A DNA stretch of 64,000 nucleotides from Kocuria palustris. GTDB taxonomy: Bacteria > Actinomycetota > Actinomycetes > Actinomycetales > Micrococcaceae. The DNA is taken from contig NZ_VDOR01000011.1 in assembly GCF_007666205.1 (NCBI RefSeq), positions 1 through 64,000 on the forward strand, read 5' to 3'. Shown here piece after piece: positions 63,586 to 63,831 of the stretch; position 1 is the stretch's first letter; every line of letters begins with the position of its first letter. Under the pieces are notes generated by a model. It saw only the letters and a program-made list of their open reading frames with translations, was not told the origin of the DNA and ran no database searches. Made by a program: the position numbers and the translations under genes.

Positions 63586-63831
63586 CCGCCCGCGAGCGCC
63601 GTCCAGCCCCCTGTGGTGATACCGTCGATCGCATGTGCACGACCGCGAAGCTACTGCTGATCTGCCGCAGCGGGTCCTGATCCTCGCCGGCTCCCGCCCT
63701 CCGTCGCCCGGAGCAGCCGCGGAGCCCCAGGATGGGCCGGACCCCGCTGCGGAGTCCGCGATGCCCGGCCCGGTCCACATCTCCTCCTCCCGCACGGTCG
63801 TCCCGTGCCGCGTCAGAGACAGGTTCATCCC
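63586..63831 (+). promoter_or_regulatory. leuA attenuator region
   Basis: An extended -10, TGa-TACCGT (63617-63625), lies 7 bases before a 15-codon leader ORF (63633-63680). The end of that ORF, CCGCAGCGGGTCC (63665-63677), can pair with GGACCCCGCTGCGG (63739-63752) over 13 bp with one bulge. The same downstream segment can instead fold into a local hairpin, GGGCCGG...CCGGCCC (63734-63740 with 63765-63771), or an inner GGAC...GTCC hairpin. The two folds exclude each other. A pyrimidine-rich run (TCTCCTCCTCCC) follows. This is the layout of leucine-responsive attenuation. Confidence 0.65.
63633..63680 (+). CDS. leuL: Leucine leader peptide of leuA
   Basis: A 15-residue [18 protein letters not shown], has three consecutive Leu codons, CTA-CTG-CTG. 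CTA is a rare codon in such G+C-rich DNA, so shortage of charged tRNA-Leu would stall a ribosome here. The ATG has no Shine-Dalgarno, but it lies 7 bases after a -10 box, so the transcript is probably leaderless. The last five codons and half of the RNA switch are the same sequence, as expected if ribosome position decides the fold. Similar leu leader peptides have been predicted in other actinobacteria. Confidence 0.65.

Follow-up and report, generated by a model that had tools for sequence, protein, structure and literature searches.

How might leuA, the gene for 2-isopropylmalate synthase, be made to respond to leucine in Kocuria palustris? For actinobacterial leuA the question of leucine sensing was left open in 2005, and mutant data quoted at the time argued against classical attenuation. 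In that year, Seliverstov et al. predicted a LEU element upstream of actinobacterial leuA and proposed that it contains a pseudoknot (PMC1262725). Their suggestion was that a protein binds the element, with the ML1624 orthologue as a candidate (PMC1262725). Here, we describe the region upstream of leuA in a 64,000-nucleotide stretch of K. palustris DNA (the window). Judged by sequence comparison, the window element is a new example of the LEU element. With a probability of roughly 0.7, we read it as a LEU-type attenuator that works by ribosome sensing. A leaderless ORF with Leu codons would place its last codons in an H-type pseudoknot before leuA.

Results

The leuA leader region of the window

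Positions 63586-63831 lie between the preceding ORF, which stops at 63585, and the leuA ATG at 63832. The gene was identified with NCBIfam TIGR00970 (777.6 bits; cut-off 697.4). The best named matches of the window LeuA are from Kocuria, at 82-85% identity, and identity is 96% in one genome of the same genus. The features of the region are as follows.

63617..63625, + strand: extended −10 promoter element TGA-TACCGT (TGA 63617-63619, TACCGT 63620-63625), 7 nt before the ATG at 63633
63633..63680, + strand: leader ORF of 15 codons, probably leaderless; predicted transcript start at the A of the ATG, stop codon at 63678
63651..63659, + strand: sensor codons CTA-CTG-CTG (Leu-Leu-Leu), from the sequence
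63665..63674, + strand: pseudoknot helix a, 5′ strand, inside the leader ORF; three more pairs possible, to 63677
63689..63726, + strand: extra predicted hairpin in pseudoknot loop 1 (−20.3 kcal/mol for a 50-nt piece)
63734..63738 (up to 63740), + strand: pseudoknot helix b, 5′ strand GGGCC, just before a′
63743..63752, + strand: pseudoknot helix a, 3′ strand a′ (CCCGCTGCGG), with covariation in relatives
63767..63771 (from 63765), + strand: pseudoknot helix b, 3′ strand b′ GGCCC, after a′
63812..63816, + strand: GTCAG, possible weak base stem with CTGAT at 63657-63661 (four Watson-Crick pairs and one G-U)
63817..63823, + strand: Shine-Dalgarno-like AGACAGG of leuA, by sequence inspection
63832..64000, + strand: leuA, 2-isopropylmalate synthase; ATG by inspection, gene runs past the end of the window

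An initial annotation, made from the window alone, had pointed out three of these arrangements, and all three are present. The first is a −10-like box 7 nt before a 15-codon ORF with CTA-CTG-CTG. The second is a 13-bp complement with one bulge between the end of that ORF and a downstream segment. CCGCAGCGGGTCC (63665-63677) is complementary to GGACCCCGCTGCGG (63739-63752), with 10 bp, a bulged C at 63742 and then 3 bp; the segment lies 62-87 nt downstream of the ORF end with which it pairs. The third is a hairpin at 63734-63771 (GGGCCGG ... CCGGCCC) that is not followed by a T-run.

The strands occur in the order a, b, a′, b′. Hence, helices a and b cross and would form an H-type pseudoknot. 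Loop 1 is 59 nt long in the window. The distance from a to a′ is 68 nt, and 74 nt in the sister species G120, compared to 15-31 nt in the other 67 of 69 aligned rows; long spacers also occur in a few relatives that were set aside as long. The long loop 1 of the sister species has a different sequence and folds too. The folding energy of the single leader sequence did not differ significantly from that of shuffled sequences (z 0.72 and 0.43). Hence, the window alone could not settle the structure; its relatives do.

The leader ORF is conserved at leaderless spacing

The relatives comprised 110 leuA loci (80 named and 30 others, including the window's own locus). A leader-like ORF was found by script in 105 of the 110, the window included. 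Five of the 105 (L012, L022, L051, L106 and L109) were later set aside, with the wrong ORF or partner picked or an atypical leader. No leader was found by script in L006, L073, L094, L110 and L111. A later check with the RNA model R2 (described below) detected clear elements in L012, L051 and L073 and a weak element in L094; L006, L022, L106, L109, L110 and L111 gave no match. Loci L106 and L109 keep the a:a′ duplex; their leader is long, and its motif is preceded by just two or three Leu codons (GRLLGRR, GLLLGRR).

In 93 of 100 leaders, a TANNNT box has its end 5-8 nt upstream of the start codon, compared to 0.48% of 10,000 control positions; the former count is somewhat inflated because starts were chosen with a preference for such a box. 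The box is directly preceded by TG in 78 of the 100, and 93 have a spacing of 6 or 7 nt. Start codons are GTG (53) or ATG (47). On this sequence evidence, the distance from box to start is the geometry expected of a transcript that would begin at the start codon.

Helices a and b covary

Helix a was paired in 890 of 890 cells among 89 sequences (alignment A1), with six of ten pairs changed on both sides; the best duplex decided where A1 segments end, a choice with some bias towards helix a. A1 omits repeats and the over-long segments L023, L026, L052, L066, L069, L082 and L083; the window was restored as a row of its own. Pairing was 99.9% over 82 sequences. Class-wide, 99.6% of 966 cells were paired (97 distinct sequences) and eight of ten pairs had changed on both sides, in a set that overlaps the training rows and is fitted to the model. 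Slid registers of this class-wide set gave at most 66% pairing. In each test of helix a, the percentage paired and the covariation score were reached by 0 of 500 shuffles; the shuffles do not keep relatedness, and the test of 89 sequences was of the whole structure. The number of further pair types in the 89 sequences was not above that of shuffles (344 of 500 were as high). At the codon after CGC, the typical compensatory changes are GGC/GCC, GAC/GTC, AGC/GCT and AAC/GTT.

Helix b was only 45% paired on fixed A1 columns, because its register shifts. With the register left free, at least 4 bp formed in 87 of the 89 A1 sequences and at least 5 bp in 70, with individual values at or below 0.05 in only 28 of 89. 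Class-wide, 85 of 90 elements formed at least 5 bp; the strands came in 56 distinct sequences, and none of 500 permutations did as well. For this test, the 99 rows of alignment A4 were reduced by eight named rows (L227, two duplicates and five doubtful ones) and by one repeat. The comparison of sequences supports the view that both helices covary and could coexist as a pseudoknot.

These results bear on the initial annotation, which had named loss of the ORF or its helices in close relatives as grounds for abandoning it. ORF and helices are kept. The leucine leader peptide and its leaderless spacing find support. The proposal that the ORF end pairs with a downstream segment, in a manner that a ribosome could govern, is likewise supported, as the helix covaries. 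The second half of the proposal was a two-state choice between this pairing and a terminator-like hairpin, and it is not supported. The outer stem of the hairpin is the conserved helix b, which is compatible with helix a. Hence, of the "competing hairpin", the outer stem (63734-63738/63767-63771) is conserved and covaries, whereas the inner hairpin is not conserved. Competition with helix b, at its inner end, is limited to the last three pairs of the annotated complement (63675-63677 with 63739-63741). Among 82 elements, the consensus fold without strand a was empty, the hairpin region had a mean z of 0.08, and no conserved OFF structure lacking strand a was found. We therefore rejected the terminator-like hairpin as a general OFF structure. 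The hairpin region of the window folds alone at −26.4 kcal/mol, so local competition may still occur here.

Distribution of the element

Two RNA models were used, R1 for the whole leader and R2 without the leader codons. At E up to 0.01, R1 found matches in 189 of the 197 class genomes and in 88 of 91 genera, with contexts read for part of the matches. Complementarity by chance in G+C-rich DNA would fit a leader folding energy no better than that of shuffles. Set against the covariation of both helices and the number of genomes matched, this reading is already refuted, and we give it next to no weight.

In the genus of the window, 25 of 27 genomes were matched by R1 at E up to 0.1. Three weak matches in this genus were read (L189-L191; weak matches had E from 0.002 to 0.08) and are not before leucine genes, so a few R1 matches near the threshold may be due to chance. 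No second LEU element was found in the window's own genome, where the next match has E 0.34. Genomes G157, G181 and G199 (family label f14) are without an R1 match, and G157 is also without an R2 match.

R2 matched 35 of 39 genomes, one per family label, with at least one of the 35 (G175) doubtful. Its training set, A3, already held eight leuC-linked and five leuB-linked elements found by R1; hence, R2 matches on those are by construction. In a phylum sample (n = 119), 10 genomes of the class and one other were matched (88 unmatched genomes lie outside the listing). That other, G461:C191:4081-4148, is the single R2 match outside the class (E 1.8e-4), and chance or transfer is possible. Within the phylum searched, the matches agree with a LEU element that is confined to Actinobacteria and widespread there. 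No match was obtained with Rfam 15 at gathering score in the window or in 12 related loci, nor at E up to 1 in positions 63500-64000.

Sensor codons change with the gene behind the pseudoknot

Many genomes have more than one match. We read 97 contexts, consisting of 44 of 44 places of one R2 search, 42 of 63 places of another, and R1-derived places. The elements precede leuA (61), a second, non-orthologous leuA type (3), leuC (8), leuB (15) or a gene for a LeuA-domain-like protein (4), and six contexts were unclear. These counts are not frequencies, since the set includes L172-L188, mostly chosen for second R1 matches; duplicates L193 and L201 were dropped. Genes were classed by sequence motifs, partly by hand; single examples of leuC, leuB and ilvE were also checked with NCBIfam. 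No element was seen before another amino-acid operon among the places read from the two R2 searches.

The leuC-linked elements (L172 and L174-L180) all have family label f4, presumably Microbacteriaceae to judge from the leader sequence. The leuB-linked elements (L181-L184, L186, L196, L213, L223, L225, L232, L240, L250, L258, L272 and L275) span seven labels (f2, f3, f11, f12, f20, f23 and f30). An ilvE motif follows leuB in 11 of these 15. The stretch available was short for L184 and L196; it was long enough for L272 and L275, in which no ilvE motif was found. The small genes behind L245, L261, L264 and L265 (f7) encode proteins of 131-167 aa that resemble a stand-alone LeuA allosteric domain; two of the four pass the Pfam LeuA_dimer cut-off and two are below it.

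The run LLL is present in 58 of 61 leuA-linked leaders and in 0 of 15 leuB-linked leaders (Fisher p 3e-13, with related elements counted as independent). Conversely, Val or Ile occurs in 14 of 15 leuB-linked leaders compared to 11 of 61 leuA-linked leaders (Fisher p 8e-8, counted likewise). Examples of leuB-linked leaders are SVFVLID-CRGEA, RHIFVLR-CRGGA and QVLVLIT-CRGGA. Leaders linked to leuC all contain LL (8 of 8), and two of the eight contain Val or Ile. L258 has no recognisable branched-chain leader in the expected frame, and its leuB motif is at ~0.5 kb. The pseudoknot of L255, which like L258 has label f20, is also without an in-frame branched-chain leader; a leuB motif is at ~1.65 kb, behind another ORF. 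We take that ORF to resemble a ROK-type regulator.

Codon choice in the leaders is also distinctive. CTT makes up 158 of 295 leader Leu codons (54%), compared to 68 of 2403 (3%) in the adjoining leuA genes. The last leader Leu codon is CTT in 79 of 86 cases; the window, with CTA-CTG-CTG, is unlike this usual ending. Val codons of leuB-linked leaders are GTA in 12 of 19 cases, a count given alone without a baseline. Pairing with the Shine-Dalgarno sequence, rather than sensing, might account for part of the preference for CTT.

The sensor codons change with the gene while the pseudoknot stays constant. Hence, ribosome sensing is favoured over a bare protein site. In the latter case, the pseudoknot would be bound by a regulatory protein, and the ORF and its Leu codons would be incidental or only part of the RNA fold. 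What speaks for such a site is that the fold is compact and conserved, together with the mutant results cited in PMC1262725. We nevertheless consider it improbable. The rare Leu codons lie outside the pairing strands and are a signal of their own. Before leuB, the codons switch to Val/Ile/Leu while helix a keeps its pattern. Furthermore, the distance between the −10 box and the ORF start is that of a leaderless transcript. None of these features would be expected of a bare protein site. In our comparison, codons that match the pathway favour ribosome sensing over the protein-binding idea of 2005.

A model for leucine sensing by ribosomes

Comparison with relatives supports three components of the proposed attenuator: the promoter spacing, the ORF and its rare sensor codons, and the two helices, a and b, that cross. 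In the model, scarcity of charged tRNA-Leu would stall the ribosome at 63651-63659. A ribosome at the Leu codon at 63651 would reach ~63664, according to general toeprint geometry. Stalling on the first Leu codon would thus leave strand a (63665-63674) free, and the pseudoknot could form. Conversely, with leucine plentiful, the ribosome would reach the stop codon (63678), where it would shield the whole of strand a and hold the pseudoknot open. We take the pseudoknot together with the stalled ribosome to be the leuA-ON state.

Several points count against sensing of this kind, among them the lack of a conserved OFF structure, the weak base stem of the window and its sensor codons without the usual CTT ending. 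By general ribosome geometry, a ribosome stalled on the last Leu codon would cover about half of strand a. A further point is the mutant data for the Streptomyces coelicolor leuA leader. As told in PMC1262725, leader mutations had some effect, inconsistent with classical attenuation; the Conclusion of the same paper gives a slightly different form of these data, in which Leu-codon mutations had no influence on regulation. As quoted there, the data count against a ribosome-sensing attenuator.

Beyond the window, we lean towards a more general proposal, in which the LEU pseudoknot serves the class Actinomycetes as a modular core for attenuators. It would combine a conserved two-helix pseudoknot with an exchangeable leaderless sensor ORF. 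The codons of the latter would be re-set from Leu-only (leuA and leuC) to mixed Val/Ile/Leu (leuB, mostly with ilvE, and the small LeuA-regulatory-domain genes). The attenuator would be terminator-free, with formation of the pseudoknot as its read-out.

The output step

The least certain step is how the pseudoknot would act on leuA. We slightly favour control of translation start, on account of the missing U-run, a gene start near a′, and a Leu run complementary to the Shine-Dalgarno sequence in Microbacteriaceae. In 74 loci, 38-115 nt separate a′ from the leuA start; the distance in the window is 79 nt. The 74 are the loci that remained for tests of Shine-Dalgarno pairing, after removal of 22 of 100 without a recognised or distant enough leuA start and of four repeats.

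In the translational version of ribosome sensing, the pseudoknot would hold a base stem between the Leu run and the Shine-Dalgarno sequence, and a stalled ribosome would open it. We rate this just short of an even chance. Pairing of the Leu run with the Shine-Dalgarno sequence beat within-group permutation in a group of 26 loci, mostly Microbacteriaceae (z 3.0, 0 of 300). At L045, up to 10 contiguous pairs can form, one of them G-U. The signal was weaker in the other 48 loci (z 2.2, 5 of 300). A control pairing of a′ with the Shine-Dalgarno sequence gave z 3.3 with families mixed and 1.9 inside the 26-locus group; hence, part of the signal in such z-scores is due to relatedness. In the window and its sister species, the base stem amounts to no more than CTGAT:GTCAG. 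In the window, this stem lies just 5′ of the Shine-Dalgarno sequence and is middling among relatives (35 of 74 score no higher). It is weak and does not make a convincing base stem. The length of leuB leaders also argues against a translational output. A separate idea, that b or b′ pairs with the leuA Shine-Dalgarno sequence, arose from GGCC being in both in some Micrococcaceae. It found no support (z 0.7 and −1.9) and was rejected.

Ribosome sensing could instead have a transcriptional output. In that event, the pseudoknot would be an antiterminator, and in the OFF state transcription would end in the leader. Because there is no U-run, the end would be Rho-dependent. This is plausible, though we would hold the odds to be somewhat against it. 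The LeuB N-terminal motif begins 241-759 nt after the match start (13 of 15 leuB-linked elements measured). This is far for a simple mask of the ribosome site, so a transcriptional effect fits the leuB leaders better. In the window, positions 63772-63831 are C-rich (43% C, 23% G). However, an excess of C after the pseudoknot is not general, with C>G in 56 of 98 leuA-linked and 9 of 15 leuB-linked elements, and a Rho-type bias as a general feature was thus not borne out. T-runs also speak against this output by their rarity, as does the lack of a conserved alternative hairpin. Of 100 relatives, 5 have TTTT in the 60 nt that follow a′, and the window has no T-run after its hairpin, making intrinsic termination unlikely.

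Discussion

Enterobacterial trp and leu attenuators share with the window the leader-peptide logic and rare Leu codons. The window differs from these classical attenuators in having no terminator with a U-run, in its leaderless spacing and in its pseudoknot. Thus, of the hallmarks of a classical attenuator, it has sensor codons for the pathway but not the terminator hairpin and U-run.

The closest likeness is to the LEU element itself. In most Actinobacteria, it too has a Leu run in a leader ORF, and leuA is likewise preceded by a pseudoknot (PMC1262725). The base stem between Leu run and Shine-Dalgarno sequence described for that element (PMC1262725) is weak in the window and clearest in Microbacteriaceae, and the window differs further in its long loop 1 with a predicted hairpin. 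Apart from one transposase gene, leuA is the only gene named in the 2005 text (PMC1262725), whereas we find the element also before leuC, leuB and LeuA-regulatory-domain genes.

The LeuL1 leader of Streptomyces lividans leuA, MRFGLLLLSCRGEGL, is similar to that of the window. According to the excerpted account, it has 15 residues, with a Leu run followed by a CRG motif, is leaderless and has no typical terminator (PMC8079986). No pseudoknot is described in that excerpt, unlike our reading of the window. The ilvB leader attenuators of Corynebacterium and Mycobacterium, as excerpted, also have a uORF with branched-chain codons, and ribosome position decides the fold (PMC10272879, PMC13236596). 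In those excerpts, they end in an intrinsic terminator with a U-run; the window has none, and its fold is a pseudoknot.

Among the matches listed in the open-access literature, we found no report of the mechanism of the LEU element or of elements before leuB or leuC. As far as open-access searches show, the sensor-codon switch is not in print. An attenuation survey of 2010 from the same group (Mol Biol 44:128; cited in PMC4833913) could bear on this novelty.

Matches to the model are nearly universal in the class, yet Rfam 15 gave no match. The class Actinomycetes includes industrial producers of amino acids and antibiotics. With the pseudoknot held constant, sensor codons differ between leuA or leuC and leuB. 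This amounts to an experiment done by nature; it speaks for ribosome sensing and shows which codons to change. If the element works as proposed, an attenuator without a terminator would be an added RNA mechanism for G+C-rich bacteria.
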